Part shown: positions 15,729 through 38,127 of the stretch, in pieces
Numbering within the stretch: position 1 is the stretch's first letter
Layout of the letters: each line of letters opens with the position of its first letter
Assembly: GCF_910592395.1 (NCBI RefSeq)
Contig: NC_088320.1
Span: 13,082,501-13,146,500, forward strand
Length of the DNA: 64,000 bases
Direction of reading: 5' to 3'
Source of the DNA: Lineus longissimus
Taxonomy: Eukaryota; Nemertea; Pilidiophora; Heteronemertea; Lineidae
The notes under the pieces: model-generated
The model's input: only the letters and a program-made list of their open reading frames with translations
Database searches by the model: none
What the model was told of the DNA's origin: nothing
Translations under genes and position numbers: made by a program

Positions 15729-15759
15729 ACGCTTTCTCCGGGAAAAAAAGGTTAAAGAT

Positions 15760-17109: not shown

Positions 17110-17503
17110 GTGTAACTCTTTGAGCACAGGTTTTATGTGCTCAAATTTCCACCGGCGGCAAACTCTCCTGGCAGCCCAATTTCGAATGCGCTGGAGTGGA
17201 ATAGCACTTTTCGGAAGACCGTACAGAATACCATTTAAACATAGGCTACCGAGGATGCTCTTTCAGAATTTGTGTTGTTCAGCTGACTCCCCCGAAGAAT
17301 CAATGACTGATTTCCCGAATCTTAGCGAGCAATGGCTCGGGAGTTGGGTTTGTTCCGAACATTGGGTCACTGATTTTTCTCTGTCTTTGATGGTTGAGGC
17401 AATACCAAGATAAATTGAGGTTTGCGTCAATATCCGAGTGGCACCGACGGCAAATAATGTTTGGGCAGCAAACGAACGACTCGGCTAAACATATCGGCTG
17501 CAG

Positions 17504-18619
17504 CTCTCACTAAAGATGTTGTTCTCTGTGATTCAGCATCTATATCACTTGAAGCAAGATATCACAATTAAAGGAGAGTTTCCAGCGCGTAGTGCTAGAG
17601 TTTATTACCACCAGGGACTCCAGGTAGTCGCGATGGCCGCTCCTGTCAATATGATCTTCTCAACGCCTCGAAATGTGTATGTCTATCGCCTGAACAAGAC
17701 AATGTCTTCTTATATACTGATTAGGCATTTCACTGTAAAAGAGCTAATCCTTATATGTGGTGAGTATAGGAATAGTTTTGTAGGAATAAGTAATACAGGA
17801 GTTTCCTGGCTTGTGTCGGAACGGAGGACTGTTAAAATCACCATATTTGAACTTGAAGGTAACATACGGAAACTAAAAATCCCTTATAATGAATTTAAGA
17901 CGCGTCTTGTGAGTGGGCGTAAACGTTTTCGGTGGTTAAGAGTGGCGACATGCGGAGAAAATGTTTTCTTAGAGCTAACTTATGCAATGAAACGAACATA
18001 TGGCAACAGCAAGACGAACGGACCCATCGCTGTCTCACTGTCATTTCTACACTGGTTCAAGATACAAGACTGTGGACTTTTCTTCAAGCTTAAACATGTA
18101 GAGAACTTGGGTTCAGCAGGACAGCCTCGAAAGGCAGAGTTGTACGAAAGGAGTGTTCAACTCAAAAATATCCAGTGTGATAGAGAATGCATTTATTCGT
18201 TTACCTTCAGACCTTTTACAATCCGATGCAAAACTCTCATTGATGACAAAACAAAGATGGAAGTCTTCAATGACTTATGGCTCATGTATGAATATAACGA
18301 AGCCTATCTACTTGGAAACAAATACCTTATAGTTAAATCTGAAAATAGCATCGAACTTTTTGATAAAAGACAGGATTTGCATGGAAAGTTTCTAAGTGTG
18401 TACGAAATCGTTCACGTAGACAATGATCACGTTAAAACTAAGAAAAAATTAATTAGTAGCGGGAGTGGCCAAATGAGGTGGCTGATGTCCTTCACCGCCA
18501 AACATGACAGGTCATATGCTATCCTTCCAACCAAAGCTGGTGAATTCGTTAGCTGGCCAAGGTGGAATAGGGGCCAGCATATACCTTTAGTCGCGAAGAT
18601 CTATAGCAAAGGAGTTTAA
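17504..18619 (+). CDS. Unrecognised multi-copy gene, main exon, block A
   Basis: A 371-codon frame from a candidate acceptor (GGCTGCAG, ending 17503) or 367 codons from the ATG at 17516. The first four codons after the acceptor (CTC TCA CTA AAG) are in frame with the ATG and with the phase-0 donor of the upstream 85-codon exon. I do not recognise the protein. It has alternating hydrophobic strands (ITIKGEF, VYVYRLN, KYLIVKS, AILPTKAGEFVSWP) suggestive of beta structure, and no clear signal peptide or membrane segment. The stop overlaps an AATAAA signal (TTTAATAAA, 18615-18623). Copies in B and C are open over the same length. About 24 of some 30 codon differences from B change the amino acid. 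Confidence 0.6.
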   Translation, partial: LSLKMLFSVIQHLYHLKQDITIKGEFPARSARVYYHQGLQVVAMAAPVNMIFSTPRNVYVYRLNKTMSSYILIRHFTVKELILICGEYRNSFVGISNTGVSWLVSERRTVKITIFELEGNIRKLKIPYNEFKTRLVSGRKRFRWLRVATCGENVFLELTYAMKRTYGNSKTNGPIAVSLSFLHWFKIQDCGLFFKLKHVENLGSAGQPRKAELYERSVQLKNIQCDRECIYSFTFRPFTIRCKTLIDDKTKMEVFNDLWLMYEYNEAYLLGNKYLIVKSENSIELFDKRQDLHGKFLSVYEIVHVDNDHVKTKKKLISSGSGQMRWLMSFTAKHDRSYAILPTKAGEFVSWPRWNRGQHIPLVAKIYSKGV

Positions 18620-19018
18620 TAAAAGGTGAATAAGCAATGGAAAACTCTCGGAATTCGTTCCAGAGTGGTTAGTTAGGTTCAAAAATTTGTTTTCTTCATA
18701 TTTTGACAAAGTGTTGTGAATATTACGCGTTGTACTTCGAGTGTTCTACCACTTGTAATACTGGTAGAGAAAAAGACGCCAGGGCCACTGGAGGTTGTTT
18801 CCACTATCATACCAGGGAGAAAGACAATTGAGGCTAGGATCCCACGGAAGGTTGTTTCCACTACCAGTGAAAAAAGAAAACGATCGTGACCATTGGCCCA
18901 GGGAAGGGTGTTTCATCTCTACCAGTGACACACTGGTGTTTTGGGAATCCCCATTTCTTGCTACACAAGAGTTGAATACAATGTACTGGCTTTGTTTGGA
19001 GGAAAATCTTCCATTTCT
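18620..19018. repeat. 3' flank with imperfect direct repeats, block A
   Basis: Downstream flank of the gene with three imperfect copies of a GGAAGGTTGTTTCCACTACCAG-like word at about 18790, 18846 and 18905, spaced about 55-60 bp. No gene. It matches blocks B and C; similarity to B stops at 19018. Confidence 0.5.
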
Positions 19019-20072: not shown

Positions 20073-20624
20073 TAATGGCATCGTCCAGCAAGCGCAAGCT
20101 CTCTGAAGAAGAGGTTTTGAACAGTATTCTGGAGTCGGATGATGATTTGTTGTCTTACGTTGATTCGGAATATGAAACTGACGATCGGGAATGAGGCGTA
20201 TTTGATAAACGCCAGTGACTTAGACACTCAATCTGAGCCTGAGGGTGATGATCCTGGTGATCTTAGTGCCAGTAGTAGTGATAATGATGGGCCTGCTGGT
20301 GATGGGCCCGCGCCCCGCCATGTGGTGGCTCGTGCAAGAGGACCACGTGGTCGACCACGTGCAAGAGGATCACGTGTGCCAGATCGAGATTGGAGTCCAC
20401 ATGGGCAAGCAAGGGACAGGTTCCCTTTCACTAGCAATCCTGGCTTGAAGGTGAACATTGACGACCCAGAGGATCCTCTGGAGTTTTTTGAACTCTTTTT
20501 TAATGATGTGTTGATTGATCTGATCGTAACTCAGACCAATCTATTTGCCCAGCAGTTCATGAATGACAAGAGACCTGGACTGAAACGTCGCTCTCGGGCT
20601 TAACAATGGGAAGATACTACTGGT
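20073..20624 (+). pseudogene. piggyBac transposase, N-terminal part
   Basis: Starts at ATG 20073 (MASSSKRKLSEEEVLNSILE), then an acidic stretch (ESDDDLLSYVDSEYETDD) typical of piggyBac N-termini. A frameshift near 20190 moves into a frame with acidic and RG-rich low-complexity sequence, then the start of the conserved domain (NIDDPEDPLEFFELFFNDVL and QTNLFAQQF). A TAA at 20601-20603 interrupts this frame shortly before the Polinton insertion at 20630/36704, where the frame would continue into the C-terminal part. Confidence 0.8.
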
Positions 20625-20644
20625 GATGAGAGTAGTTTATGGGT

Positions 20645-20960
20645 GACTCTGGCTGATGATTGACCTAGTTAGGATTGCCCTAGTTTCAAGTGACCTTGAC
20701 CTCCCATGTCCTTGACCTTGGAGGATAGGAATGATTTTAGAATGACCTTGACCGAGAAAGATGGCTTTAATTGACCTAGTTAGCCTTGCCCTAGTTTCAA
20801 GTGACCTTGACCTCCCATGACCTTGACCTTTAATTGACCTAGTTAGCATTGCCCTAGTTTCAAGTGATCTTGACCTCCCATGGCCTTGACCTTTGAGGAT
20901 AGGAATGCTTTGAGAATGACCTTGACCGAGAAAGATGAGTGTTTGCCCACTCTTGTCCTT
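20645..20960 (+). repeat. Terminal tandem repeats of the Polinton, left end
   Basis: Three copies of a roughly 63-bp unit (TTGACCTAGTTAGCATTGCC, then CTAGTTTCAAGTGACCTTGACCTCCC), the first separated by an extra spacer of about 60 bp. The word TGACCTTGA (inverse TCAAGGTCA) recurs about five times. No gene. Confidence 0.75.
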
Positions 20961-21737
20961 GAAACGGTGAAGGTTATTTTCAAACCATCTGTCACATTTG
21001 AAATGAGGGTGCATTGGTCAATTAACCCAGCAAATGACCCGAGGCAAGGGCCTAAAACATGTGCTGCAAAATGCACATGCATAACAATGCATACAAAATT
21101 ACCAACCATAGGCCCCTATATCTTAACTTCCAAATTACAGAAAAATTATAAAGATAATTAAAATAAAAAACTCACCAAACTTTGCTCCATTGGTTCACTT
21201 TAAATCCCACAGATTACAAATCCTTAAAATCCAAAACTTCCAAGAAGAAATTGGAAAAGAAAGGGAACAACATCCTTTCTAAACCTCCTCCACCATCTTC
21301 AAGTCCAAAAGAGGCCCACATAGAATGTAAGGGGCTACCTAGAGGCCCACAGAACCATAACCAATCAAAAATGTCAAAAGGGAGGCAAATTTAAAAGGTC
21401 CAAACCAGAGCTGCCTCCTATCCTAAGATTTTGAAACTAAATTAAAGACTGGGCTCTACAGTGTCCTTGACTTCCAGGGTCTTATTTTTCCAGGGGGAGG
21501 GGGACACTTTCTACTTTTACACCGGCACGTTCCGAAACATCGCCGATGCGTGCGATCCATAGAAATGTGTGGTATTTTCCATCACCAGGGCATAGACAAG
21601 CGTCCATAGAAATTGTCTCTACTCATGTTGATGTCCAGCTGTCAAGATGTCAAGAGAAAACATTGTATTCATTCCGTATCTTTCTAATGCTGTATTATAA
21701 AACACTTGAATAAAATTGTTGTATTGCTATTTTTGCA
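20961..21737. other. Polinton sequence without recognised gene, left arm
   Basis: Between the terminal repeats and the first gene, mirrored at about 35645-36420 in the right arm. Short frames such as 21182-21394 and its mirror 36200-35988 are identical in the two arms but show no features I recognise. Confidence 0.4.
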
Positions 21738-22085
21738 TCACGTTTCCAAATGAATGCGTGCAGAAGTGTGACAAAAGAGGCGTCCGGTATAGTGACCAGT
21801 AGGTATTGTGCATGTCTTCCAAGCTTCAGGGTTTTTACCCGTTTTTGGGTCGGGGTCATCGCTGGTTGGGATGTAAATGTGAAAAGTGTTATTGGTTTCG
21901 TTGACATTGCTCCAGGTGCGTGGATATTTTATCTCCGCAAGGCCGACCTCCCAATTTTCAGCAGAGCCGAGTCTGATGGCTGCGCTGAGCTGCTTTGTGT
22001 AATGACCTATTGTATTGTCGGGAAAGTATTTCAAGGAGCTATTGCAGGGTAAAGAAACATAAAAATGGTCATTAAAAGTAGTCAT
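21738..22085 (-). pseudogene. Polinton conserved protein (LPCNSS type), truncated, left arm
   Basis: A 115-codon frame starting MTTFNDHFYVSLPCNSSLKY, followed by FPDNTIGHYTKQL and WEVGLAEIKYPRTW. This N-terminal pattern belongs to a protein commonly encoded by invertebrate Polintons and Polinton-like elements; its function is unknown to me. The frame ends abruptly after GHYTGRLF where family members are much longer, and a second frame (21907-21695) overlaps the end, so a frameshift and truncation are likely. It is the gene nearest the element terminus. Confidence 0.6.
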
Positions 22086-22406
22086 TTTGCCTTAATTGGG
22101 AAAACGTTTCTTGGTTAATGCACGCGTGTTCTCGGGTATTGATGGATTCGGTAACAAGTAACCTAAACAGCTGCACAGGAGAGAGAGATCCACACAGTAC
22201 TTTCACCGTTGGCAATAGCTATATCAATGAGAGCAGTAACGATCACTATGTAAATAATTATGATCTGGGCAAAGAAATTATCTCGGGTTTAGGGACATTG
22301 TGACCAAAAAGTTTCCAATTCTTCTGTTGTGAAGTGATTGAATCGTTGCCGTCGCCTTCCTTGTTTTCAGATCCGCGTGTCATTTCTGCAATCATGCTTT
22401 GTTTAC

Positions 22407-23546
22407 TCAGTGTTTGTGACAGTGTAGAATAAAACATAGATGTTGAACGTCTGCCATGCGCACCCAACTGTTGAACTTTGCTGGATATCCATCCCATTTA
22501 ACTAAATATTCTTTTGTTCTCCCCCTGCCGCGTTCTGCAAGTATTCTCTCGAATTTATAGGTCTTTTCTGGCGACACATCTACTTTCTGCAGCTCTTTTT
22601 CGTAGAAAGTGCCTAAGATGTTTTCACCTTGCGCGTCATGGACGCCGTACAGGGTTGGATGACTTTTAACGCGTCTTTTTATAGTGAAGATTTCTGTTGA
22701 CCAGTTGGGTAAATAAGATTTTTCGAATAGCATTTTTGTCTTGCCAATCCTTACCTTATCGCCAATTTCAAATTTGAATTTGACGTTTTTTGTTGATAGG
22801 TTTTCTTTTGAGTAGAGTATGTGCCAAACGTCATCTGCATTACCCTCGTTCACCTCGCTGGGTTTCCTCTTGATGCTCCTATGCCACATGTTGTTGTATG
22901 AATGTAGAAGTTTCTGAAGAATTGACAGGTATGACAGAGTGTTCTGCCGTGTAAAGGCACAAAACATGTGTTATTTGAAAGTTATGTTGAAACACTCGAT
23001 TATAGCTGCTTTAACCTCATTATTCGAAGTAAAAAAATTGATATTTTCTTTTTTTAGAAAGGCTTGAAATTTCTTGCCCAGAAACTCACCCCCCTTATCG
23101 GTTCTTAAATTTTTTTGTTTTCGCTTGGATGTGGCAAATATTTTAGAGAATGCATCCACCTGTTCTGCCCCTGTTTTAGTTCTTAAAGGGACCACCTACG
23201 CGAATTTCGAAAGCGTATCGATCACTGTGAGCAAATATTTATAGGGTTTATTATATTTGACTATTCTACACAAATCAACGAGATCCGCTTCCCACTGTTC
23301 GGCGATGTCGGTGACAACAATACGCCTTCGTTTGAAATGGCGACGGATCGGCTTGTGGAGCGTGTATGTGGCTTGACTTCTTAACCATTTCTTGATGTCA
23401 GAGGTCGATATCTTACTACCGACCACCCTCTTTAAGGTATTTACACCTCCAAAACTACCGGAAATACATGGTGTGTAATAGATCTTTTTCAATAGCCTGG
23501 CTGCTTTGTCACTACCACGCTTCCCAGCTTTCATTTTTGTCGTCAT
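22407..23546 (-). pseudogene. Polinton integrase with chromodomain, left arm, two nonsense codons
   Basis: One continuous frame of about 380 codons with two in-frame stops, TAG at 23198-23196 and TAA at 22973-22971. The N-terminal part has the IYYTP.ISGSFGGV pattern of Polinton integrases. The retroviral-type core shows WEADLVDL (Asp 88), RTDKGGEF (Asp 150) and KAAIIECFN (Glu 184); the last two are 33 residues apart. A C-terminal chromodomain (about 330-365) has FERILAE, YLVKWDGY and NSWV. Integrase inserts the element with 6-bp duplications; the chromodomain may bind histone marks. The same two stops occur in the right arm. Confidence 0.88.
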
Positions 23547-23683
23547 GTTTTCATGTGGAGAAGATGGTATCAGGACTGTCGAATACAGGAGAACTCTGTC
23601 TGTGAAACGTCGGAGAGTTCCAAGAAGCTAATGGGTCTCTCCTCCTCGACTTGGGCGTTTTATTGACCCCTATACCCTCCCTA

Positions 23684-24343
23684 TCATTGAGTTTGAGTTT
23701 TTTCTTCCCTGTTCGTAATCATGTTACTGGATATTTCACCCTTACCATCGAGATAAGATAGGACCGAATCAACGCCGACAGGAGGGCTAAAATGTTTTGC
23801 GTTTGAAGAGGCGTTTTGTATGACCGACTTGATATCGCTTCCTTTAATGACGTCTCCGTTAATTGAAATTTCGCCGCTTTCGTTCCAGCTAAATTTTGGG
23901 TCGTCCAGCAATGCCTGTACTAATTTTTTGGCCTTTGGTTTTGAGTACCCGGGTACTTGCTGCAATATCGCCTTGGGGGAAAGAGGAGACAATACGGAGG
24001 GCTGGGCAGCCATTTGGTTTACAGCAGTTGTATCCGCAGCTTGGGCAGTCGTTGTAACAGCATTTTGGGCTTGCCCTATTGTTCCAGCGTTTAAATCTAG
24101 TGATGGGGAATGTATTGTTCCCAAGTACTTGCGAAGCAACTGCGAGTATGCTGTGGCCTTGTCATACTCACTCATAGTTGTTGAGGACAGTATTTTTTGC
24201 ATTTCTTGATCAATACCCATTGCGTTGTATGCCTGGGGTTTGGTATCCTCTTTGTGGCGTTGCTGATACAGATATTTATCTACCATCTCATGAGGTATTA
24301 ACGCCATTTTGCGCATCTGACTCATTATGCGGCTATTTATCAA
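23684..24343 (-). CDS. Polinton conserved protein of unknown function, left arm
   Basis: A 219-codon open frame. It has LIPHEMVDKYLYQQR near the start, ILSSTTMSEYDKATAYSQLLRKYL (about 52-74), an Ala/Thr/Gln-rich linker, then PKAKKLVQALLDDPKFSWNESGEISINGDVIKGSDI and a serine-rich end. The same architecture is common in invertebrate Polinton and Polinton-like elements; I know no assigned function. It overlaps the start of the small basic gene upstream by a few bases, suggesting co-expression. The frame is intact here but broken in the right arm. Confidence 0.65.
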   Translation of the reverse strand: MINSRIMSQMRKMALIPHEMVDKYLYQQRHKEDTKPQAYNAMGIDQEMQKILSSTTMSEYDKATAYSQLLRKYLGTIHSPSLDLNAGTIGQAQNAVTTTAQAADTTAVNQMAAQPSVLSPLSPKAILQQVPGYSKPKAKKLVQALLDDPKFSWNESGEISINGDVIKGSDIKSVIQNASSNAKHFSPPVGVDSVLSYLDGKGEISSNMITNREEKTQTQ

Positions 24344-24666
24344 CCACCAAAAATACTTCCAATGGCTCTAATCACGGGGCCTAGCAGTGCTCCAAGAAAA
24401 CCACCCTTTTGAATGATCCGTTTTCGTTCCTTTAACGATGTCTTCTTGCACGCTAATTTACGGAGGGAGTGCTTGTGTTTCTTCAGACATTTAAATTGAT
24501 TTCTATTAAGGGGTACGTTGCCTTTTAAACAGTTGCTCGCAGACTCCCCCACCGCATTAAGGAGCCCTTTGTCGGCTGTTTGAAGAATCTGGCGTCTTTT
24601 CTTAGCCTGAGCAGATTTCAGTGCTTTGAGTTGGCGCACGTAATGTTTAATGTGATATTTTGCCAT
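24340..24666 (-). CDS. Polinton small basic protein with Gly-rich tail, left arm
   Basis: A 108-codon frame, strongly basic in its first 90 residues (many Lys/Arg; KKRRQILQTADKGLLNAVGE), ending GGFLGALLGPVIRAIGSIFGG, a hydrophobic glycine-rich tail. Small Lys/Arg-rich proteins with such ends occur beside the ATPase in Polintons and resemble adenovirus-type minor virion or core proteins; the role here is inference. It overlaps the end of the ATPase frame by about 49 bases. Confidence 0.65.
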   Translation of the reverse strand: MAKYHIKHYVRQLKALKSAQAKKRRQILQTADKGLLNAVGESASNCLKGNVPLNRNQFKCLKKHKHSLRKLACKKTSLKERKRIIQKGGFLGALLGPVIRAIGSIFGG

Positions 24667-25235
24667 ATCGAATAATTGATGCTAAAATCCAAGAATAGAT
24701 ATCCAAAGGGTTGACGCGTCGCATCGGCAAAAGCTTCGGGATGGGCTTTGGTATTACCAGGAGAAATTTGCTTTGCCAAATGTGTGATCTGAGACACGTC
24801 TCTTGGATTTTTGAATAACACCACATAATTAGAATTCAAGCTTATGGTGCGCTGCTGTCTCCCGTGAAAAAAAAAGTTCTGTACGATAAAGATGGCTCTC
24901 CGGTTCAAATGATGACAATCCTTGGTGAAGATCTTTGTGACTTTTTCATCTGTTTCACACATTAAATCGTCGATAAGGAGCAATGTTCGCTCATCTACAG
25001 ATGTATTTTCAGAAAAATTCAGACCAGAGACGAACTCCACATTTGGAAACGCTGCAAACGCCTCCTGCCATACTCCTCCATAGCACCAAACAATTCTATC
25101 AGGTGGAGGGTCAATAGTAGAGGCAGCATTGGATATCAATCGTTGTACAAAGAAAGACTTCCCGCACATGGTAGGCCCTGCTACTAGACATGTGAATGGA
25201 TGTTTCAAGAGAAGGTCTCCACTTGAAATATGCAT
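24618..25235 (-). CDS. Polinton packaging-type ATPase, left arm
   Basis: A 205-codon open frame. Walker A is GPTMCGKS (residues 20-27) and Walker B LLLIDD (84-89), followed by HHLNRRAIFIVQNFFFHG and LNSNYVVLFKNPRD. This is the A32/FtsK-like ATPase type of Polintons and large DNA viruses, which drives genome packaging into capsids. Length and motif order are normal for Polintons, so the frame looks functional. It is unusual that it is intact beside broken integrase and polymerase. A foldback-like element lies directly upstream. Confidence 0.85.
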   Translation of the reverse strand: MHISSGDLLLKHPFTCLVAGPTMCGKSFFVQRLISNAASTIDPPPDRIVWCYGGVWQEAFAAFPNVEFVSGLNFSENTSVDERTLLLIDDLMCETDEKVTKIFTKDCHHLNRRAIFIVQNFFFHGRQQRTISLNSNYVVLFKNPRDVSQITHLAKQISPGNTKAHPEAFADATRQPFGYLFLDFSINYSIWQNITLNITCANSKH

Positions 25236-25582
25236 GCTGAGATCTCGACTAATATAATGAGGGATTCAACAAAAAAATACTGTTATAGGTTATAGTGCAA
25301 CTGTCTAGAGCAAAAACAGATAATGATCTATTGTACCGTGGATGTTGGTGATAATGATGATGATACATTCTGTAATAGTGCTATCAAGGTATTTTAACTG
25401 TTTTCTGGCGCAGAAACCATAATAGATGACACTGGCAATAATTTTTACAATAACATCCCTTATAAAATGACATATATGTAAGCACGATACAGTTCAATGA
25501 TGTTTATAAAATAATAATAGCAGATGTACAATGATGATAATAGCGCTCAAGGAGCGCGTAAACTTCACTATGGTGAAATAAT

Positions 25583-26582
25583 GGTTTATGCCTGTTTCGC
25601 CTATTCCTGTTTCGCCTATTCCTGTTCCGCCTATTCCTGTTTGGCCTATTTCCTGTTTGGCCTATTTCCTGTTTCGCCTATACCTGTTTCGCCTACTTCC
25701 TGTTTCGCCTACTTTCCAGTACCCCTACAATAAATCGACTCTCCCAGGGGGAACCTTAGGGATGCATGTCCATTTTATGGGAAAAATGTGAGGGAACAAT
25801 TGGATGATGTTAACGATGTGATGAAAATTTGACTAATCAAATGCCATCAACTTTATTAACAAACCATGCCATGACCGTTTTGAAAGAGTCACCTTGAAAG
25901 CGGGGACAGTCCGGGACTTATTTGACCATATGACTATACTGACACACAGTAAAAACTAATAGATTAAGTAGAGTAAAGCAGTCGCTTATTTTATAAAAAC
26001 AGGAATTCATGAGTTTTTGATAAAAATACATAATACTGTACATTCTCATAATTATTTGATCAAAATCAGCTGTAAAACCCATGTCATAGTAAAGAACAAT
26101 GTAGCTATAGGTATTCTTTCTATTACGTAGCCAGTTACTGACTAAGACAAAAGAAAGAGAATCCACAATATAAAATGCAGGTCTGAGAAACCTTTCTCAA
26201 ATCTAATGAAAGGGTAAAACTTTCTTACTATTTTATTTCTTGCCTTTTAAAATACGCTAAAACATAAGCCAATGTAAGCTATGTATAATTTTCCAAAGCT
26301 ATTCCGAATAATACTGAAATAATTGACATGTCGCTAAATCCATTATTTCAGACTTTATTCTTAATGATAGCCTTTAACACTATAGTAAGGGACGGTTCAT
26401 ATTCCTACGTCTGTGGGGAGGTTAGCAATACTTTTGAATAGGCGAAACAGGAATAGGCGAAACAGGAATTAGGCGAAACAGGAATAGGCGAAACAGGAAG
26501 TAGGCGAATCAGGAATAGGCGAATAAGGAATTAGACGAAACAGGAATAGGCGGAACAGGAATAGGCGAAACAGGAATACACC
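25583..26582. mobile_element. Foldback-like element with minisatellite inverted repeats, left arm
   Basis: About 1.0 kb flanked by the 8-bp direct repeat GAAATAAT (25575-25582 and 26583-26590). Both ends are inverted arrays of a 15-bp unit CCTGTTTCGCCTATT with variants, starting GGTTTATGCC on the left and, reversed, GGTGTATTCC on the right. The about 700-bp core has no gene I recognise. Terminal repeats built from tandem repeats are the hallmark of Foldback-type elements. Confidence 0.8.
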
Positions 26583-26617
26583 GAAATAATACACGTGAGA
26601 GAGAGACGTCAAAATAG

Positions 26618-28130
26618 CTAATAGCCAAAAGGCAATGTAAAGAAATCGTCTGTCAGGTAACGCTTGTCGTATACTAAGCCGTACTTTTTCACCTCCCGAA
26701 CTGTGGTAATTTTGAAATCCTTACGTCGCCGAATTTTGTAAGGATTTTCGACCGAAAGGGTGTCGGAAAAATTCAGGTTTTGTACCAAGTCCCTCATGGT
26801 TTCGAAATTGATTTTTTGACTATTACCATAGTTCAGGGTGAACCCTCGGACTTTGCACACAGTCTCTTTACTCTATTTGATGCGATACCCGTAGTTTTTT
26901 GGTCCCCCTGAAACAAACTCTTCAAGGGATGCGCCGTTCAACTCATCCTTGAAATCCCCCAGATAGTCGCCTAGGGGTGGGTTGAAGTGTTTTTTGTTTG
27001 TTTTGTCGTACACGTATATAATACTATCAGTGTCAAAATATTATACTTGTTGATCAAGTTTTTCCAACTCCTCATACAATTACAGCCGCACATGTGCAGT
27101 TGTGTAAGCTGCGATAACACAATTTGTGTAAGGACACGCTTCTATGAATTCAGTCTTCTCACGGTATTTCAAAAGAACGAATTCTTCGTTCACTAATTGA
27201 GAATCTGTTACTTCAATGCTATCGTCGGTCAATTTATTGATATAAACCTCTGGACTATCTGTATATAATGTCTTTACAAAGTTATTTCGTTGCCCGAATT
27301 TTCCCCACAACGCACATATCCCTGCCTTGTAGGTACTGCGCATGCCTGCGTTATATTTGATATTGTAACGGTCTAAAGTGATCCCCTCGTGCGGTGCGTA
27401 ATCATCGATGTACTTCTTTTTGTCTTCTTCGGTCTCACACCAATCGGGCCAACCGCTAGCTTCTTCTTTTCTGCTTTAGAAAAGTATTAATGAAACTCAT
27501 AAATAGACCGCCCTCTTTCTTCTCAAGATCATATTGGGTTGTTTGCTCGAAATCCCAAATTTCGTATGTTCGCACCAGACGATAGCCCTTTTCGACCGCT
27601 TTTCTGACTTCAAATATAACCCATGTCCCTATCAGAGTGCACTCATCGTCTGAATGGTCACACGTTTTAGACGACGTCTCCGCACACTTCGCACAAAGAG
27701 AAAACTTCAACTTGTTACCCGTCCTCTGGGGTAAAACAGGAAAATACAATTGCTTTGGCGGTAATACTTTACATTTGATAAGACCTTCGCACTTCTGTGG
27801 GTCGTCAACCTTTTGCAGATTTTCACCCCGGTACATCACTGGGTGCCCTAGAGGATAATGTTTATATTTATTGACATACGGATAAAGCGATGTAAAGTCG
27901 ACATATTTGATGCTTTCGTTTTCATTACATTTGTGATACAGTTTCACAGCGTTCGTTCTTCCCCCGAAAAAGGCTTCTCGGGGGGGGGGGGGGTTCAGAG
28001 GCTCGGAGATGTTCAGATCTTTTGCAAATGCTGCCAGTTCGGGATCTGCCTTAATTTCCACTCTGAACTCGCACTCCCACTTGGAAATGACAGTGTATCC
28101 GCGGTCTCTTTAAGAAAGTACGCCGTACGC
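26618..28130 (-). pseudogene. Polinton DNA polymerase B, left arm, exonuclease region deleted
   Basis: Keeps the polymerase part: motif A VDFTSLYPYVN in the open frame 28061-27456, LWGKFGQR (27343-27080) and the FDTDS catalytic box near 27040. It has a +1-type frameshift after FLKQK (about 27470) and nonsense codons just upstream of FDTDS, all shared with the right arm. The 3'-5' exonuclease region is lost in a deletion of about 1065 bp. Protein-primed family B polymerases replicate Polintons; this copy cannot. Confidence 0.85.
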
Positions 28131-28140
28131 CAAAATCGTA

Positions 28141-28177
28141 CAAACTTCATAAATTCTCTTAGAATTTATGAAGTTTG
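28141..28177. repeat. Palindrome centre of the Polinton
   Basis: A perfect hairpin: arm CAAACTTCATAAATTCT (28141-28157), spacer CTT (28158-28160), then the exact inverse from 28161. Outside it the arms continue as inverted copies of polymerase sequence, with the left arm deleted after about 14 more bases. Confidence 0.95.
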
Positions 28178-30761
28178 TATTCTACGATTTTGAGTCAACA
28201 CAGGAGAAAATACTGGCTGATGGTTCAAAGGAGCACGTGCCCAATCTGTGTGTTGCACAGCGTTGCTGCCTTTTTTGTGGGAGGGAACAAAGCGCTGAAA
28301 ATGATGACGACTTGCTGTATTGTGTGCGGAGACAGACGTGATGAATGCGTCTTCAAGGGGGAGGATACCGTAACGGAATTTTGTGAATGGTTATTCAACG
28401 GCGAAAATATGGGGCGAATGGCAATCGCTCACAATAACAGGGGTTACGATGCTTTCTTCATCATCCAGTATCTTCACCGTGTTGGTATTAAGCCCACAAA
28501 CGTAATACAGGTGGGACAGAAGTATCTTTCATTCGAAGCGTGCGGCATAAAATTCCTGGATTCATTGAGTTATTTGACAATGCCGCTGAGTGCATTTCCG
28601 AAAACGTTTAACCTGAAAGAGTGTCGAAAGGGCTGGTTTCCCCATCACTTTAATACAGAAGAAAATCTAAATTATGTCGGGGAGATACCCGACATGAAGT
28701 ACTTTGCCCCTGAGAGCATGTCTGTTGACGGTAGAAAGGAATTTATGTTGTGGTACGAAAATCAAAAAGGAAAAGAGTACAACATGTTCGAGGAGCTTCT
28801 TGCATACTGTAAAAGTGACGTTACGATTCTCCGTCGCTGTTGTGTCTTATTCGCTCTGGCTTTTGAAACCATTCTAAAGGTTAATCCCTTTGAGAAAAGT
28901 GCAACCATGGCTTCAGCATGCAGGCGAGTGTACCGTCAAAACTTTATGGAGCCCAACACCGTTGGCGTACTACCTCCATACGGATAAACATGCGACAAAC
29001 AGTCTGCTATAGGTGTCAAGTGGTTGGAATGGTTGATGCGAAAAAACCCAAATCTCTTTATACAACATGCGCAAAACGGGGGCGAAAAGGCGATTGCGAA
29101 TTCCAAAGTAGATGGGTGGGATGAGCGGAATAACGTTGTCTATTCTTTCGACGTGTGTTACTTTCATGGTTGCGAAGTCTGCTTTCCAAAAGGATACACC
29201 ATGAATCAACGTACAGGTTCAACTATGGGTGAACTGCGCGAACGCACTGCGTTTCGGCGTACTTTCTTAAAGAGACCGCGGATACACTGTCATTTCCAAG
29301 TGGGAGTGCGAGTTCAGAGTGGAAATTAAGGCAGATCCCGAACTGGCAGCATTTGCAAAAGATCTGAACATCTCCGAGCCTCTGACCCCCCCCCCCCCCC
29401 GAGAAGCCTTTTTCGGGGGAAGAACGAACGCTGTGAAACTGTATCACAAATGTAATGAAAACGAAAGCATCAAATATGTCGACTTTACATCGCTTTATCC
29501 GTATGTCAATAAATATAAACATTATCCTCTAGGGCACCCAGTGATGTACCGGGGTGAAAATCTGCAAAAGGTTGACGACCCACAGAAGTGTGAAGGTCTT
29601 ATCAAATGTAAAGTATTACCGCCAAAGCAATTGTATTTTCCTGTTTTACCCCAGAGGACGGGTAACAAGTTGAAGTTTTCTCTTTGTGCGAAGTGTGCGG
29701 AGACGTCGTCTAAAACGTGTGACCATTCAGACGATGAGTGCACTCTGATAGGGACATGGGTTATATTTGAAGTCAGAAAAGCGGTCGAAAAGGGCTATCG
29801 TCTGGTGCGAACATACGAAATTTGGGATTTCGAGCAAACAACCCAATATGATCTTGAGAAGAAAGAGGGCGGTCTATTTATGAGTTTCATTAATACTTTT
29901 CTAAAGCAGAAAAGAAGAAGCTAGCGGTTGGCCCGATTGGTGTGAGACCGAAGAAGACAAAAAGAAGTACATCGATGATTACGCGCCGCACGAGGGGATC
30001 ACTTTAGACCGTTACAATATCAAATATAACGCAGGCATGCGCAGTACCTACAAGGCAGGGATATGTGCGTTGTGGGGAAAATTCGGGCAACGAAATAACT
30101 TTGTAAAGACATTATATACAGATAGTCCAGAGGTTTATATCAATAAATTGACCGACGATAGCATTGAAGTAACAGATTCTCAATTAGTGAACGAAGAATT
30201 CGTTCTTTTGAAATACCGTGAGAAGACTGAATTCATAGAAGCGTGTCCTTACACAAATTGTGTTATCGCAGCTTACACAACTGCACATGTGCGGCTGTAA
30301 TTGTATGAGGAGTTGGAAAAACTTGATCAACAAGTATAATATTTTGACACTGATAGTATTATATACGTGTACGACAAAACAAACAAAAAACACTTCAACC
30401 CACCCCTAGGCGACTATCTGGGGGATTTCAAGGATGAGTTGAACGGCGCATCCCTTGAAGAGTTTGTTTCAAGGGACCAAAAAACTACGGGTATCGCATC
30501 AAATAGAGTAAAGAGACTGTGTGCAAAGTCCGAGGGTTCACCCTGAACTATGGTAATAGTCAAAAAATCAATTTCGAAACCATGAGGGACTTGGTACAAA
30601 ACCTGAATTTTTCCGACACCCTTTCGGTCGAAAATCCTTACAAAATTCGGCGACGTAAGGATTTCAAAATTACCACAGTTCGGGAGGTGAAAAAGTACGG
30701 CTTAGTATACGACAAGCCTTACCTGACAGACGATTTCTTTACATTGCCTTTTGGCTATTAG
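28164..30761 (+). pseudogene. Polinton DNA polymerase B, right arm, broken
   Basis: The first motif is VFYDFES (about 28177), exonuclease motif I, only a few codons from the palindrome centre, so the protein's N-terminal region is missing. Exonuclease II (IAHNNRGYDAFFI) and III (YCKSDVTIL) follow in the open frame to 28987; then motif A VDFTSLYPYVN (29319-29924), LWGKFGQR and FDTDS (about 30345). Breaks are frameshifts near 28250, a stop near 28985, a frameshift at about 29910 and nonsense codons at about 30298 and 30337. Frames from 29319 on carry the same breaks as the left arm. A run of 15 C lies in the coding frame at 29386-29400. Confidence 0.88.
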
Positions 30762-30796
30762 CTATTATGACGTCTCTCTCTCACGTGTATTATTTC

Positions 30797-31811
30797 GGTG
30801 TATTCCTGTTTCGCCTATTCCTGTTCCGCCTATTCCTGTTCCGCCTATTCCTGTTTCGCCTAATTCCTTATTCGCCTATTCCTGATTCGCCTACTTCCTG
30901 TTTCGCCTATTCCTGTTTCGCCTAATTCCTGTTTCGCCTATTCCTGTTTCGCCTATTCAAAAGTATTGCTAACCTCCCCACAGACGTAGGAATATGAACC
31001 GTCCCTTACTATAGTGTTAAAGGCTATCATTAAGAATAAAGTCTGAAATAATGGATTTAGCGACATGTCAATTATTTCAGTATTATTCGGAATAGCTTTG
31101 GAAAATTATACATAGCTTACATTGGCTTATGTTTTAGCGTATTTTAAAAGGCAAGAAATAAAATAGTAAGAAAGTTTTACCCTTTCATTAGATTTGAGAA
31201 AGGTTTCTCAGACCTGCATTTTATATTGTGGATTCTCTTTCTTTTGTCTTAGTCAGTAACTGGCTACGTGATAGAAAGAATACCTATAGCTACATTGTTC
31301 TTTACTATGACATGGGTTTTACAGCTGATTTTGATCAAATAATTATGAGAATGTACAGTATTATGTATTTTTATCAAAAACTCATGAATTCCTGTTTTTA
31401 TAAAATAAGCGACTGCTTTACTCTACTTAATCTATTAGTTTTTACTGTGTGTCAGTATAGTCATATGGTCAAATAAGTCCCGGACTGTCCCCGCTTTCAA
31501 GGTGACTCTTTCAAAACGGTCATGGCATGGTTTGTTAATAAAGTTGATGGCATTTGATTAGTCAAATTTTCATCACATCGTTAACATCATCCAATTGTTC
31601 CCTCACATTTTTCCCATAAAATGGACATGCATCCCTAAGGTTCCCCCTGGGAGAGTCGATTTATTGTAGGGGTACTGGAAAGTAGGCGAAACAGGAAGTA
31701 GGCGAAACAGGTATAGGCGAAACAGGAAATAGGCCAAACAGGAAATAGGCCAAACAGGAATAGGCGGAACAGGAATAGGCGAAACAGGAATAGGCGAAAC
31801 AGGCATAAACC
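30797..31811. mobile_element. Foldback-like element with minisatellite inverted repeats, right arm
   Basis: Mirror copy of 25583-26582, flanked by ATTATTTC at 30789-30796 and 31812-31819. Arrays run at 30797-30958 and 31683-31811. The repeat number or sequence of single units differs slightly from the left arm. It separates polymerase B from the ATPase. Because both arms have it at the same place, it inserted before the palindrome formed, unless copied by conversion. Confidence 0.8.
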
Positions 31812-32158
31812 ATTATTTCACCATAGTGAAGTTTACGCGCTCCTTGAGCGCTATTATCATCATTGTACATCTGCTATTATTATTTTATAAACATCATTGA
31901 ACTGTATCGTGCTTACATATATGTCATTTTATAAGGGATGTTATTGTAAAAATTATTGCCAGTGTCATCTATTATGGTTTCTGCGCCAGAAAACAGTTAA
32001 AATACCTTGATAGCACTATTACAGAATGTATCATCATCATTATCACCAACATCCACGGTACAATAGATCATTATCTGTTTTTGCTCTAGACAGTTGCACT
32101 ATAACCTATAACAGTATTTTTTTGTTGAATCCCTCATTATATTAGTCGAGATCTCAGC

Positions 32159-32776
32159 ATGCATATTTCAAGTGGAGACCTTCTCTTGAAACATCCATTC
32201 ACATGTCTAGTAGCAGGGCCTACCATGTGCGGGAAGTCTTTCTTTGTACAACGATTGATATCCAATGCTGCCTCTACTATTGACCCTCCACCTGATAGAA
32301 TTGTTTGGTGCTATGGAGGAGTATGGCAGGAGGCGTTTGCAGCGTTTCCAAATGTGGAGTTCGTCTCTGGTCTGAATTTTTCTGAAAATACATCTGTAGA
32401 TGAGCGAACATTGCTCCTTATCGACGATTTAATGTGTGAAACAGATGAAAAAGTCACAAAGATCTTCACCAAGGATTGTCATCATTTGAACCGGAGAGCC
32501 ATCTTTATCGTACAGAACTTTTTTTTTCACGGGAGACAGCAGCGCACCATAAGCTTGAATTCTAATTATGTGGTGTTATTCAAAAATCCAAGAGACGTGT
32601 CTCAGATCACACATTTGGCAAAGCAAATTTCTCCTGGTAATACCAAAGCCCTTCCCAAAGCTTTTGCCGATGCGACGCGTCAACCCTTTGGATATCTATT
32701 CTTGGATTTTAGCATCAATTATTCGATATGGCAAAATATCACATTAAACATTACGTGCGCCAACTCAAAGCACTGA
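32159..32776 (+). CDS. Polinton packaging-type ATPase, right arm
   Basis: Inverted counterpart of the ATPase at 24618-25235, also open over 205 codons with both Walker motifs. It differs at two residues near 170 (Leu and Lys for His and Glu in the KAxPxAFAD stretch). Two open copies of the same gene in inverted orientation lie about 7 kb apart. Confidence 0.85.
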   Translation: MHISSGDLLLKHPFTCLVAGPTMCGKSFFVQRLISNAASTIDPPPDRIVWCYGGVWQEAFAAFPNVEFVSGLNFSENTSVDERTLLLIDDLMCETDEKVTKIFTKDCHHLNRRAIFIVQNFFFHGRQQRTISLNSNYVVLFKNPRDVSQITHLAKQISPGNTKALPKAFADATRQPFGYLFLDFSINYSIWQNITLNITCANSKH

Positions 32777-33053
32777 AATCTGCTCAGGCTAAGAAAAGAC
32801 GCCAGATTCTGCAAACAGCCGACAAAGGGCTCCTTAATGCGGTGGGGGAGTCTGCGAGCAACTGTTTAAAAGGCAACGTACCCCTTAATAGAAATCAATT
32901 TAAATGTCTGAAGAAACACAAGCACTCCCTCCGTAAATTAGCGTGCAAGAAGACATCGTTAAAGGAACGAAAACGGATCATTCAAAAGGGTGGTTTTCTG
33001 GAGCACTGCTAGGCCCCGTGATTAGAGCCATTGGAAGTATTTTTGGTGGTTGA
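32728..33053 (+). pseudogene. Polinton small basic protein, right arm, frameshifted
   Basis: Counterpart of the gene at 24340-24666. A 1-bp deletion (one T of a TCTT run near 32998) shifts the frame after IIQKGGFL, giving a stop at 33012 and loss of the glycine-rich tail. Confidence 0.7.
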
Positions 33054-33690
33054 TAAATAGCCGCATAATGAGTCAGATGCGCAAAATGGCGTTAATACCT
33101 CATGAGATGGTAGATAAATATCTGTATCAGCAACGCCACAAAGAGGATACCAAACCCCAGGCATACAACGCAATGGGTATTGATCAAGAAATGCAAAAAA
33201 TACTGTCCTCAACAACTATGAGTGAGTATGACAAGGCCACAGCATACTCGCAGTTGCTTCGCAAGTACTTGGGAACAATACATTCCCCATCACTAGATTT
33301 AAACACTGGAACAATAGGGCAAGCCCAAAATGCTGTTACAACGACTGCCCAAGCTGCGGATACAACTGCTGTAAACCAAATGGCTGCCCAGCCCTCCGTA
33401 TTGTCTCCTCTTTCCCCCAAGGCGATATTGCAGCAAGTACCCGGGTACTCAAAACCAAAGGCCAAAAAATTAGTACAGGCATTACGAAAGCGGCGAAATT
33501 TCAATTAACGGAGACGTCATTAAAGGAAGCGATATCAAGTCGGTCATACAAAACGCCTCTTCAAACGCAAAACATTCTAGCCCTCCTGTCGGCGTTGATT
33601 CGGTCCTATCTTATCTCGATGGTAAGGGTGAAATATCCAGTAACATGATTACGAACAGGGAATGGAAGAAAAAACTCAAACTCAATGATA
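33050..33690 (+). pseudogene. Polinton conserved protein of unknown function, right arm, frameshifted
   Basis: Counterpart of the 219-codon gene at 23684-24343. A deletion of about 26 bp near 33487 changes the frame after KKLVQAL and stops it at 33508. The downstream sequence, including the serine-rich part, is still present out of frame to about 33690. The defect is absent from the left arm, so it arose after the arms formed, or was corrected in the left arm. Confidence 0.7.
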
Positions 33691-33825
33691 GGGAGGGTAT
33701 AGGGGTCAATAAAACGCCCAAGTCGAGGAGGAGAGACCCATTAGCTTCTTGGAACTCTCCGACGTTTCACAGACAGAGTTCTCCTGTATTCGACAGTCCT
33801 GATACCATCTTCTCCACATGAAAAC

Positions 33826-34968
33826 ATGACGACAAAAATGAAAGCTGGGAAGCGTGGTAGTGACAAAGCAGCCAGGCTATTGAAAAAGATCTATTACACA
33901 CCAGGTATTTCCGGTAGTTTTGGAGGTGTAAATACCTTAAAGAGGGTGGTCGGTAGTAAGATATCGACCTCTGACATCAAGAAATGGTTAAGAAGTCAAG
34001 CCACATACACGCTCCACAAGCCGATCCGTCGCCATTTCAAACGAAGGCGTATTGTTGTCACCGACATCGCCGAACAGTGGGAAGCGGATCTCGTTGATTT
34101 GTGTAGAATAGTCAAATATAATAAACCCTATAAATATTTGCTCACAGTGATCGATACGCTTTCGAAATTCGCGTAGGTGGTCCCTTTAAGAACTAAAACA
34201 GGGGCAGAACAGGTGGATGCATTCTCTAAAATATTTGCCACATCCAAGCGAAAACCAAAAAATTTAAGAACCGATAAGGGGGGTGAGTTTCTGGGCAAGA
34301 AATTTCAAGCCTTTCTAAAAAAAGAAAATATCAATTTTTTTACTTCGAATAATGAGGTTAAAGCAGCTATAATCGAGTGTTTCAACATAACTTTCAAATA
34401 ACACATGTTTTGTGCCTTTACACGGCAGAACACTCTGTCATACCTGTCAATTCTTCAGAAACTTCTACATTCATACAACAACATGTGGCATAGGAGCATC
34501 AAGAGGAAACCCAGCGAGGTGAACGAGGGTAATGCAGATGACGTTTGGCACATACTCTACTCAAAAGAAAACCTATCAACAAAAAACGTCAAATTCAAAT
34601 TTGAAATTGGCAATAAGGTAAGGATTGGCAAGACAAAAATGCTATTCGAAAAATCTTATTTACCCAACTGGTCAACAGAAATCTTCACTATAAAAAGACG
34701 CGTTAAAAGTCATCCAACCCTGTACGGCGTCCATGACGCGCAAGGTGAAAACATCTTAGGCACTTTCTACGAAAAAGAGCTGCAGAAAGTAGATGTGACG
34801 CCAGAAAAGACCTATAAATTCGAGAGAATACTTGCAGAACGCGGCAGGGGTAGAACAAAAGAATATTTAGTTAAATGGGATGGATATCCAGCAAAGTTCA
34901 ACAGTTGGGTGCGCAAGGCAGACGTTCAACATCTATGTTTTATTCTACACTGTCACAGACACGTTTGA
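33826..34968 (+). pseudogene. Polinton integrase with chromodomain, right arm, two nonsense codons
   Basis: Right-arm counterpart of the integrase at 22407-23546, 381 codons in one frame. TAG at 34174-34176 and TAA at 34399-34401 are at the same two codons as in the left arm. The catalytic D, D, E and the chromodomain are otherwise present. In the last third a few residues differ from the left arm (for example Asn for Asp in the IGxKVRIG stretch, Thr for Ser before PEKTYKF, Lys for Met after NSWVR). Confidence 0.88.
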
Positions 34969-36420
34969 TATTTGAGTAAACAAAGCATGATTGCAGAAAT
35001 GACACGGGGATCTGAAAACAAGGAAGGCGACGGCAACGATTCAATCACTTCACAACAGAAGAATTGGAAACTTTTTGGTCACAATGTCCCTAAACCCGAG
35101 ATAATTTCTTTGCCCAGATCATAATTATTTACATAGTGATCGTTACTGCTCTCATTGATATAGCTATTGCCAACGGTGAAAGTACTGTGTGGATCTCTCT
35201 CTCCTGTGCAGCTGTTTAGGTTACTTGTTACCGAATCCATCAATACCCGAGTACACGCGTGCATTAACCAAGAAACGTTTTCCCAATTAAGGCAAAATGA
35301 CTACTTTTAATGACCATTTTTATGTTTCTTTACCCTGCAATAGCTCCTTGAAATACTTTCCCAACAATACAATAGGTCATTGCACAAAGCAGCTCAGCGC
35401 AGCCATCAGACTCGGCTCTGCTGAAAATTGGGAGGTCGGCCTTGCGGAGATAAAATATCCACGCACCTGGAGCAATGTCAACGAAACCAATAACACTTTT
35501 CACATTTACATCCCAACCAGCGATGACCCCGACCCAAAAACGGGTAAAAACCCTGAAGCTTGGAAGACATGCACAATACCTACTGGTCACTATACCGGAC
35601 GCCTCTTTTGTCACACTTCTGCACGCATTCATTTGGAAACGTGATGCAAAAATAGCAATACAACAATTTTATTCAAGTGTTTTATAATACAGCATTAGAA
35701 AGATACGGAATGAATACAATGTTTTCTCTTGACATCTTGACAGCTGGACATCAACATGAGTAGAGACAATTTCTATGGACGCTTGTCTATGCCCTGGTGA
35801 TGGAAAATACCACACATTTCTATGGATCGCACGCATCGGCGATGTTTCGGAACGTGCCGGTGTAAAAGTAGAAAGTGTCCCCCTCCCCCTGGAAAAATAA
35901 GACCCTGGAAGTCAAGGACACTGTAGAGCCCAGTCTTTAATTTAGTTTCAAAATCTTAGGATAGGAGGCAGCTCTGGTTTGGACCTTTTAAATTTGCCTC
36001 CCTTTTGACATTTTTGATTGGTTATGGTTCTGTGGGCCTCTAGGTAGCCCCTTACATTCTATGTGGGCCTCTTTTGGACTTGAAGATGGTGGAGGAGGTT
36101 TAGAAAGGATGTTGTTCCCTTTCTTTTCCAATTTCTTCTTGGAAGTTTTGGATTTTAAGGATTTGTAATCTGTGGGATTTAAAGTGAACCAATGGAGCAA
36201 AGTTTGGTGAGTTTTTTATTTTAATTATCTTTATAATTTTTCTGTAATTTGGAAGTTAAGATATAGGGGCCTATGGTTGGTAATTTTGTATGCATTGTTA
36301 TGCATGTGCATTTTGCAGCACATGTTTTAGGCCCTTGCCTCGGGTCATTTGCTGGGTTAATTGACCAATGCACCCTCATTTCAAATGTTACAGATGGTTT
36401 GAAAATAACCTTCACCGTTT

Positions 36421-36690
36421 CAAGGACAAGAGTGGGCAAACACTCATCTTTCTCGGTCAAGGTCATTCTCAAAGCATTCCTATCCTCAAAAATCAAGGCC
36501 ATGTGAGGTCAATATCACTTGAAACTAGGGCAATGCTAACTAGGTCAATTAAAGGTCAAGGCCATGGGAGGTCAAGGCCACTTGAAACTAGGGCAATGCT
36601 AACTAGGTCAATTAAAGGTCAAGGCCATGGGAGGTCAAGGTCACTTGAAACTAGGGCAATCCTAACTAGGTCAATCATCAGCCAGAGTCA
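36421..36690 (-). repeat. Terminal tandem repeats of the Polinton, right end
   Basis: Inverted counterpart of the left-end array, with three exactly spaced 63-bp units. Several TCAAGGTCA words have drifted to TCAAGGCCA, so the array has diverged a little from the left one. Confidence 0.75.
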
Positions 36691-36709
36691 CCCATAAACT
36701 ACTGATGAG

Positions 36710-38127
36710 ATGAGGGTTTACTTAGGCTTGTATACAACCCCCTGGAGAAGAAGAAGGGCTGAGTATCAGCAGTATTTTTCGAGGTGGCTTCCCTGGATAC
36801 ACCCTTCTTCCGTGATGTAATGGACTATGACCGGTTTGTCCTCTTGAACAAGTTTTTGCATTTCGCAGACAACACCAAAGCAGGAGACGATGATACAATT
36901 CCCCGTAAGCTGTACAAATTGTGGCCAATACTCCAGCACATGAAGAGAAGATTCCCAGATGTTTATCAGCCAGAGAGAGACGTAGCTATCGACGAGTCCC
37001 TTATGCTGTGGAAGGGAAGTCTGGGGTGGGAACAGTACATCCCCTCCAAACGTGCACGCTTTGGGATAAAGTCGTTCGAGATATGCAAGTCCAGCTCAGC
37101 CTTCATCTTGGACTTCTTTGTTTACACAGGGGTGGGTACGGTCTATGATCCAGGGCTTGATGAGGACCTACCAATGGGTTCAAAAGTAATCCTGACACTT
37201 GGTCGGCAGTTCTTCAACAAAGGTTACTATATCAATATGGAAAACTTTTTTAGCTCACCTGGTCTTTATGATGAACTTTGTGCAAGAAGCACTGATGCTG
37301 TTGGAACCATCAGGCCTAACCACAAAGGTCTACCCAAAGACTTTCTGAAGCAGAAACTTCGTAAGGGAGAGATCAAAGCTGCGTATAGTGAGAAGCTGAT
37401 GCTTCTGAAGTGGAGAGATAAGAAGGACGTCCACATGCTCAGCACCATCCATGATGCCAGAACCAGGCAAGTAGCAAGAGCAGATCCAAATAAGCCACCA
37501 GTAATGAAACCACAAGTGTGCTGCGATTACAATGATACCATGGGTGATGTTGACCTGAGTGACGCCTTCTTTTCTGCCTACCCAAGTTCCCGGAAAAGGT
37601 TGAAAAAGTATTATATCAAGCAGTTCCGTCATATCCTGGATATGGCTGTACTGAATGCCCATATCTTGTTCAAGAAGATGGGAGGAACCAGTCCAAGACT
37701 AAGCTTCATTCTGTCACTGGTGGATAGGTTAGTTGGGAAGTACAAGGTACAACAGAGAGAGAAGAGGGCGGGGCGTCCGTCCCATAGTGACACTCCGTTG
37801 CGCCTCACTGAGCGTCACTTCCTTACCCGCATCCCCCCAACACCCAAGGAGGAGTACCCTCAAAGGAAATGTCATGTCTGCTTATCAAAAGGCACCAGGA
37901 GAGACACACGTTACATGGGTAACAAGTGTGACAAGGCTTTGTGCATTACTCCATGCTTTGAAATCTACCTAACCTCGCTAAGTTGTGCCGAGTTGTGCAG
38001 GACTGATATAGTTCCTCCCATTCCCCTGGATCATGTCTCTCACCCCCCAGTAAAATTTATTGCACAAAGAGATGTAGAAGAAAGTAGTATGTACACTCTT
38101 CTGTCCCAAAAAGGAGACAAATTGTAA
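36710..38127 (+). pseudogene. piggyBac transposase, C-terminal part
   Basis: Continues the transposase right after the Polinton target duplication (MRVYLGL at 36710), is frameshifted within about 70 bases, then is open for 447 codons from 36784. Domain DDE_Tnp_1_7: VAIDES gives the first catalytic Asp (residue 70 of this frame). The usual DNF of the second site reads MENF, so Asp is replaced by Glu (codon 37240-37242). GDVDLSD carries the third Asp (257). The C-terminal cysteine-rich domain is complete (CHVCLSKGTRRDTRYMGNKC and the following CITPCF). The Glu change and the frameshifts suggest a dead enzyme. Confidence 0.88.

Follow-up and report, generated by a model that had tools for sequence, protein, structure and literature searches.

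A Polinton of Lineus longissimus with a mirror copy of one half in the place of the other

The insertion site, the arms and the fold point

The window analysed here is a 64,000-nucleotide stretch of the Lineus longissimus genome. It contains a Polinton inserted between two copies of the hexamer GATGAG, at 20625..20630 (left) and 36704..36709 (right), and both copies directly adjoin the element. The claim made in a sequence-only reading of this DNA, that a single perfect 6-bp duplication bounds the whole element, is therefore upheld. GATGAG is a common hexamer in the window, with 37 occurrences on both strands against 30.4 expected; by our arithmetic, the chance that the hexamer abutting one end also abuts the other is about 1/4096. 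Judged by profile matches and reading frame, both flanks belong to a single interrupted piggyBac transposase gene, that of the host transposon which received the Polinton. The 5' part (20139..20630, forward strand) matches positions 1-30 of the DDE_Tnp_1_7 profile at 17-18 bits, below the 22.4 cut-off, and the 3' part (36710..38127, forward strand, with an ORF at 36784-38127) matches positions 69-349 at 216 bits. When the flanks are joined at one GATGAG copy, the reading frame is maintained across the join. Three related host segments lie in the window at 14.8-19.0, 45.6-50.4 and 58.0-62.6 kb. They were considered as an empty site or an age limit and rejected, as their similarity stops before the piggyBac insertion. 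No tRNA was found in the 64-kb window.

The left arm (20631..28125, reverse strand) repeats the Polinton's right half in inverted orientation, its counterpart being the right arm (29255..36703, forward strand). The arms are identical at 7386 of 7419 aligned bases and differ by 33 substitutions and 7 indels, the latter including indels of 26 and 48 bp, so the two halves are inverted copies of one Polinton end, as had been proposed. Both element ends carry the termini AGTAGT...ACTACT, and the terminal 25 bases match nowhere else in the window with up to three mismatches allowed. One half of the element is lost, its place being taken by the other half in mirror image, and the outer edges are intact. 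The left terminal region (20631..20937) contains tandem repeats of 63 bp together with a block of 48 bp, and its divergence from the right end is elevated; the right terminal region (36445..36703) has 63-bp tandem repeats. The 48-bp block (20717-20764) is present at the left end only and differs from its inner relative at 4 of 48 positions.

The element had also been described as a palindrome. The inverted arms bear this out but the symmetry does not: the mechanical centre is at 28158-28160, and 28161-29254 forms part of the right half. The 1.13-kb "unique centre" consists mostly of right-half polB whose mirror is absent from the left arm. Of 28161-29254, the left side holds the mirror of the first 32 bp only (28161-28192, less 5 nt), and the missing mirror segment corresponds to 28193-29254. 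The fold point (28131..28192) lies inside the polB gene. Its stem is 27 bp long and carries a bulge of 5 nt, and its loop, at 28158-28160, measures 3 nt (z -11.4); none of 200 shuffles folded equally well. Where the left arm resumes (28118..28131), the junction has a 7-bp tandem duplication, GTACGCC, which is likely filler. Fold-back priming leaves a stem with a tiny loop and filler.

Genes of the element

The element retains polB (without its start), an ATPase-like ORF and an integrase. The right-half polB (28153..30761, forward strand) lacks its 5' part and was delimited by DNA_pol_B_2 pieces and reading frames. It is broken by stops at 28985, 30298 and 30337 and by apparent frame shifts near 28310, 29270, 29910 and 30520. 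Two pieces match DNA_pol_B_2 at 65.8 and 62.7 bits (profile 12-193), and a third (profile 367-435) reaches 21.7 bits, below the cut-off. The left arm carries a polB fragment at 27456..28109 on the reverse strand, the mirror of 29271-29924. In a PHROGs scan of five pieces, DNA polymerase and polymerase exonuclease families were matched by the polB pieces only; a PDB search with a polB piece gave no match at E 1.

The ATPase-like ORF encodes 205 aa and is open in both arms (32159..32776, forward strand; 24618..25235, reverse strand). Its left-arm copy scores 18.9 bits against Adeno_IVa2, short of the 21-bit cut-off. A single PDB match (E 0.61) was taken as chance, and the structure model (mean pLDDT 36.3) was too poor for use. 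A retroviral-type integrase with a chromodomain, a Polinton/Maverick trait, is present at 33745..34968 (forward strand) and, in the left arm, at 22410..23627 (reverse strand). Its Chromo domain scores 36 bits, above the cut-off, and its two rve pieces (profile 6-36, E 0.13; 44-96, E 0.00022) are consecutive, each below the cut-off. Both arms have the same in-frame stops, TAG at 34174 and TAA at 34399 in right-arm coordinates.

Three further ORFs on the forward strand have no assigned function. The 99-aa ORF at 32713..33012 has a best Pfam match below the cut-off (E 0.13). The ORF at 33026..33740 is shorter than its left-arm copy (23632-24367) through inter-arm indels of 26 and 5 bp. The 117-aa ORF at 35291..35644 has no match in Pfam, and its structure model (mean pLDDT 36.0) was too poor for use. 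No major or minor capsid or protease gene was recognised in the element ORFs scanned with Pfam or in the five pieces scanned with PHROGs; such genes may have been located in the lost half.

Like other Polintons/Mavericks, the element has a 6-bp target duplication, terminal inverted repeats with (AGT)2//(ACT)2 ends, a DNA_pol_B_2 polymerase and a chromodomain integrase; its ATPase-like ORF is a candidate for their packaging ATPase. It differs from them in that one half is present twice, in inverted orientation, that polB and integrase are broken or truncated, and that capsid and protease were not recognised in the ORFs scanned. Full-length relatives were sought in viral contigs: the two polB pieces gave 1 and 0 pattern matches, the ATPase 5 and the C-terminal integrase piece 2, none of which was confirmed, and the exact terminal and fold-point patterns gave 0 matches each. 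In prokaryotic genome contigs, 66 stretches matched the ATPase pattern and none was confirmed as a relative. Among the matches listed for Polintons and palindromes, titles and abstract openings described no palindromic Polinton and no integrated adenovirus-like symmetrical genome in Polintons; "palindrom" does not occur in the passages of PMC8097293, PMC6431247 and PMC10120064 that were searched.

Lesions and substitutions in the two arms

Seven inactivating lesions of polB and integrase were compared between the arms, namely the stops at 34174, 34399, 30298 and 30337 and the apparent frame shifts near 29270, 29910 and 30520. All seven are identical in both, and because of this the half that served as template was probably dead by the time of copying. 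A codon-by-codon comparison of eight gene pieces, one of them a polB piece in a non-coding frame, revealed no stop private to either arm.

The substitutions are unevenly distributed. Of the 33, 8 fall in the outermost 213 aligned columns and 25 in the remaining 7206 (Fisher 3e-6), which makes the left end look older than the remainder of the left arm. The best change point in divergence was matched by 1 of 2000 shuffles. The step lies near 20891, which would fit a switch within the terminal repeat, although the tandem repeats confound this reading. The innermost 213 columns, beside the centre, hold 1 substitution (outer versus inner, Fisher 0.037), so the outer divergence is not a general edge effect. 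Differences at the outer end could be inflated by exchange among units of the 63-bp array. Each of the 8 minority bases of the outer region occurs in only one of six repeat units, a pattern that argues against copying from sister units and is still compatible with a reset of one end to the common base. In this region, one of six scoring schemes for the alignment gave 6 substitutions and 4 gap runs, as against 9 and 1.

Among the other 24 substitutions, mild clustering is seen at two of the four bin sizes. The clustering index was reached by 196 and 86 of 5000 random sets at 500 and 1000 bp; at 365 and 700 bp, 2465 and 2236 of the 5000 sets reached it. The largest gap was reached by 724 of 5000. 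The clustering could reflect gene conversion between the arms, which would spread lesions too.

Origin of the mirrored half

Two origins had been left side by side in the sequence-only reading: integration of a palindrome, or replacement of one half after insertion. The lesions common to both arms (7/7) and the excess of differences at the outer end (8/213 versus 25/7206) lean to the latter. We favour, at slightly better than even confidence, the view that the left half was replaced in the chromosome, after insertion and decay, with the right half copied in inverted orientation. An ordinary Polinton would have entered a piggyBac copy, creating the 6-bp duplication, and would then have decayed. 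A broken or stalled DNA end within polB would have folded back on a short inverted repeat at 28153-28165, all or part of which may have been there already, and primed synthesis, which ran along the right half as far as the right terminal repeat, with about 1.06 kb beside the fold point skipped during copying or lost afterwards. As the right and left terminal repeats are homologous, synthesis could have switched at the right repeat into the old left one, so that neither the left flank nor the target duplication was lost. We infer the order of these events, the DNA break and the switch.

Symmetrical snap-back genomes, in which one end is present twice, on either side of a fold point, occur in adenoviruses, as defective genomes, and in linear protein-primed plasmids, which have the same polymerase class as this element. 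It is possible, if on the unlikely side, that such an extrachromosomal palindrome arose by protein-primed replication and was integrated as a unit by an integrase that used its two copies of one end, the lesions being either already in the template, with proteins supplied by a helper, or later in origin and carried from arm to arm by gene conversion. The single perfect 6-bp duplication, the identical sequence at both ends and the mild clustering of arm differences, which would fit conversion, are in keeping with it. So is the symmetrical size before the central loss, about 17.1 kb by our arithmetic, which is not far from the 16,862 bp given in PMC8097293 as the mean for intact vertebrate Mavericks. 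Integration of a snap-back genome predicts equally young ends, however, and the outer 213 columns hold 8 of the 33 substitutions, with the 48-bp block on one side only, although turnover of the tandem repeats may also have contributed. Conversion predicts an inner edge as divergent as the outer, where 1 substitution in 213 columns was found, and without conversion the template must have been dead already, with at least seven lesions. Taken as a whole, we regard as rather doubtful the integration of a Polinton snap-back genome that was made by self-primed synthesis, in protein-primed replication from one end, and was supported in trans. The sequence-only reading also saw in an integrated counterpart of symmetrical genomes a new kind of non-autonomous Polinton, a suggestion that may be right but gains no support here. 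The known snap-back genomes are extrachromosomal, whereas the present element is integrated, has lesions common to both arms, and has ends that appear unequally young.

Two other explanations are much weaker. Fold-back chimeras with skipped centres are an artefact of some amplified libraries, and an assembly error of this kind, or a misjoin through the terminal repeats, could imitate the structure; it is improbable given two distinct flanks with one matching duplication and arms separated by 33 substitutions and 7 indels, two of them of 26 and 48 bp. These same differences would suit two related Polintons brought head to head by recombination in inverted orientation or by nested insertion, but the element interrupts one piggyBac gene and has one target duplication, which indicates a single insertion, unrelated flanks would be expected from ectopic recombination, and the 27-bp stem with a 3-nt loop is a fold-back signature and not one of nested insertion. 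This origin is very improbable.

If replacement in place is correct, the terminal repeats of a large transposon can guide fold-back synthesis, and a mirror copy can take the place of half an element without disturbing its edges or target duplication; in that case, matching duplicates on the two sides are no proof that the present interior is what integrated. The replication mode of Polintons is inferred mainly from their polymerase. If instead a palindrome integrated, the locus would be direct evidence of snap-back replication in Polintons and an integrated trace of adenovirus-like symmetrical genomes, and two copies of one end would suffice for integration.

Fold-back inverted duplications with hairpin-capped ends are known from yeast and tumours. 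Like them, the element has an inverted repeat with a tiny loop at its symmetry centre, and its junction shows filler and lacks a segment; it differs in being confined between the two terminal repeats of one transposon. These repeats would supply the homology that closes a fold-back event without loss of the flank. In PMC8097293, vertebrate Maverick terminal repeats are reported to measure 46-1447 bp with a mean of 402, and the divergent outer stretch fits within that range.

Arms, gene content and insertion site

The arms of the decayed Polinton (20631-28125 on the minus strand and 29255-36703 on the plus strand) are inverted copies, as the sequence-only reading had claimed, and differ by 33 substitutions and 7 indels (48, 10, 5, 26, 1, 15 and 1 bp) over 7419 aligned columns. 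Read rightward from the fold point, the gene order is polB (28153-30761, without its 5' part), an ATPase-like ORF (32159-32776; left-arm copy 24618-25235), two uncharacterised ORFs (32713-33012 and 33026-33740), an integrase with a chromodomain (33745-34968; left-arm copy 22410-23627), a 117-aa ORF and the terminal repeats. Neither a capsid nor a protease gene could be recognised in the scanned ORFs of the element; such genes may have belonged to the lost half. Relatives were sought in viral contigs and prokaryote genome contigs and none was confirmed. Between polB and the ATPase-like ORF, each arm has two 15-bp minisatellite arrays (25568-25726 and 26423-26613; 30782-30971 and 31668-31811), mutually inverted at about 79-84%.

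The element begins with AGTAGT and ends with ACTACT, given in a passage of PMC8097293 as the commonest end motif among vertebrate Mavericks. The first 78 bases show no difference between the two ends. GATGAG, the 6-bp duplication previously reported, directly abuts both ends on the outside. The element interrupts a transposase gene of piggyBac type: its left flank resembles positions 1-30 of the DDE_Tnp_1_7 profile (below the cut-off), the right flank positions 69-349, and when the flanks are fused at one GATGAG the piggyBac frame continues over the join. The piggyBac gene has decayed too: a stop interrupts it at 20601-20603, and its frame changes at least once past the join. The edges of the element are most simply explained by a single insertion.

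Fold point and lesions common to both arms

A 1129-bp 'unique' piece as a spacer between complete arms was rejected; the fold point, 28158-28160, lies inside polB. The stem there, 27 bp long and broken by a single 5-nt bulge, is closed by a 3-nt loop (z -11.4; 0 of 200 shuffles folded equally well). Its right side is polB coding sequence running into FYDFES, which we take to be exonuclease motif I, and its left side is the reverse complement. Of the right half, 32 bp (28161-28192) are mirrored in the left arm, which then skips to the counterpart of 29255; the join carries GTACGCC as a 7-bp tandem duplication (28118-28131). The mirror of 28193-29254 (1062 bp) is absent from the left arm; by arithmetic, the palindrome would have been about 17.1 kb before this loss, unless synthesis had passed over that stretch.

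Seven right-arm lesions were checked for occurrence in the left arm: integrase stops TAG 34174-34176 and TAA 34399-34401, polB stops TAA 30298-30300 and TAA 30337-30339, and apparent polB frame shifts near 29270, 29910 and 30520. All seven fall within sequence identical in the left arm. Four are stop codons, so length errors in single-base runs do not explain these. Two more polB lesions, a frame shift near 28310 and TAA 28985, lie in the single-copy part. Codon-by-codon comparison of eight gene pieces found no arm-private stops. The longest frames in the right and left arms were 215/215 for the ATPase-like ORF, 99/100 for the ORF at 32713, 188/187 for the integrase and 117/117 for the ORF at 35291. 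For the ORF at 33026 (left-arm counterpart 23632-24367) they were 160 and 227, a difference due to inter-arm indels; polB also contains a 1-bp inter-arm indel (26904/30475). Because both arms carry these lesions, the copied half was probably already dead when it was duplicated, unless later gene conversion spread them.

Divergence of the ends and origin of the left half

The outermost 213 aligned columns have 8 substitutions against 25 in the other 7206 (Fisher 3e-6), in a 63-bp tandem array where one of six alignment scorings yields 6 substitutions and 4 gap runs, not 9 and 1. The 213 columns adjoining the centre have 1 substitution, and the best change point of divergence, 20891, was matched by 1 of 2000 shuffles. 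Each of the 8 minority bases in the outer region is found in just one of six repeat units; this argues against copying from an adjacent unit, though not against one end having been reset to the common base. The left end has a 48-bp block (20717-20764), differing from its inner relative at 4 of 48 positions, and the right end is without it.

Integration as one unit and later replacement of one half had both been proposed; the seven common lesions and the divergent outer end favour replacement. We lean, by a little over even chances, towards fold-back synthesis within polB that replaced the left half and rejoined the left terminal repeat by homology. A broken DNA end in polB would fold back on an inverted repeat around 28153-28165 and prime synthesis, which would run outward, copying the right half, and re-enter the left terminal repeat through homology. 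With the switch inside that repeat, its outer left part would be original and older, matching the observation. A snap-back genome integrated whole, with later conversion or a helper, is a possible but less probable origin. A palindrome built from one end and then integrated should have ends as similar as the remainder, whereas 8 of 213 outer columns differ. The other 24 intra-arm substitutions show mild clustering for two of the four bin sizes tried: of 5000 random sets, 196 equalled it with 500-bp bins and 86 with 1000-bp bins, against 2465 with 365-bp bins and 2236 with 700-bp bins. Gene conversion could account for this clustering. Beside fold-back replacement, an assembly artefact appears improbable, and recombination between two elements more so.

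Surroundings

The Polinton-bearing piggyBac sits between the first and second of three related host segments (14815-19016, 45639-50397 and 58021-62633; about 96% identical), which have open frames of 372-376 aa (17489-18619, 48896-50014 and 61261-62391). The one frame scanned, 17489-18619, had no Pfam match. Reverse transcriptase domains occur in 5984-9785 and 11516-13789, by our own reading of class non-LTR-type retrotransposons. A DDE_Tnp_4-type transposase fragment lies at 895-1587, and an 81-bp tandem repeat array (40045-41154) lies downstream of the piggyBac element.
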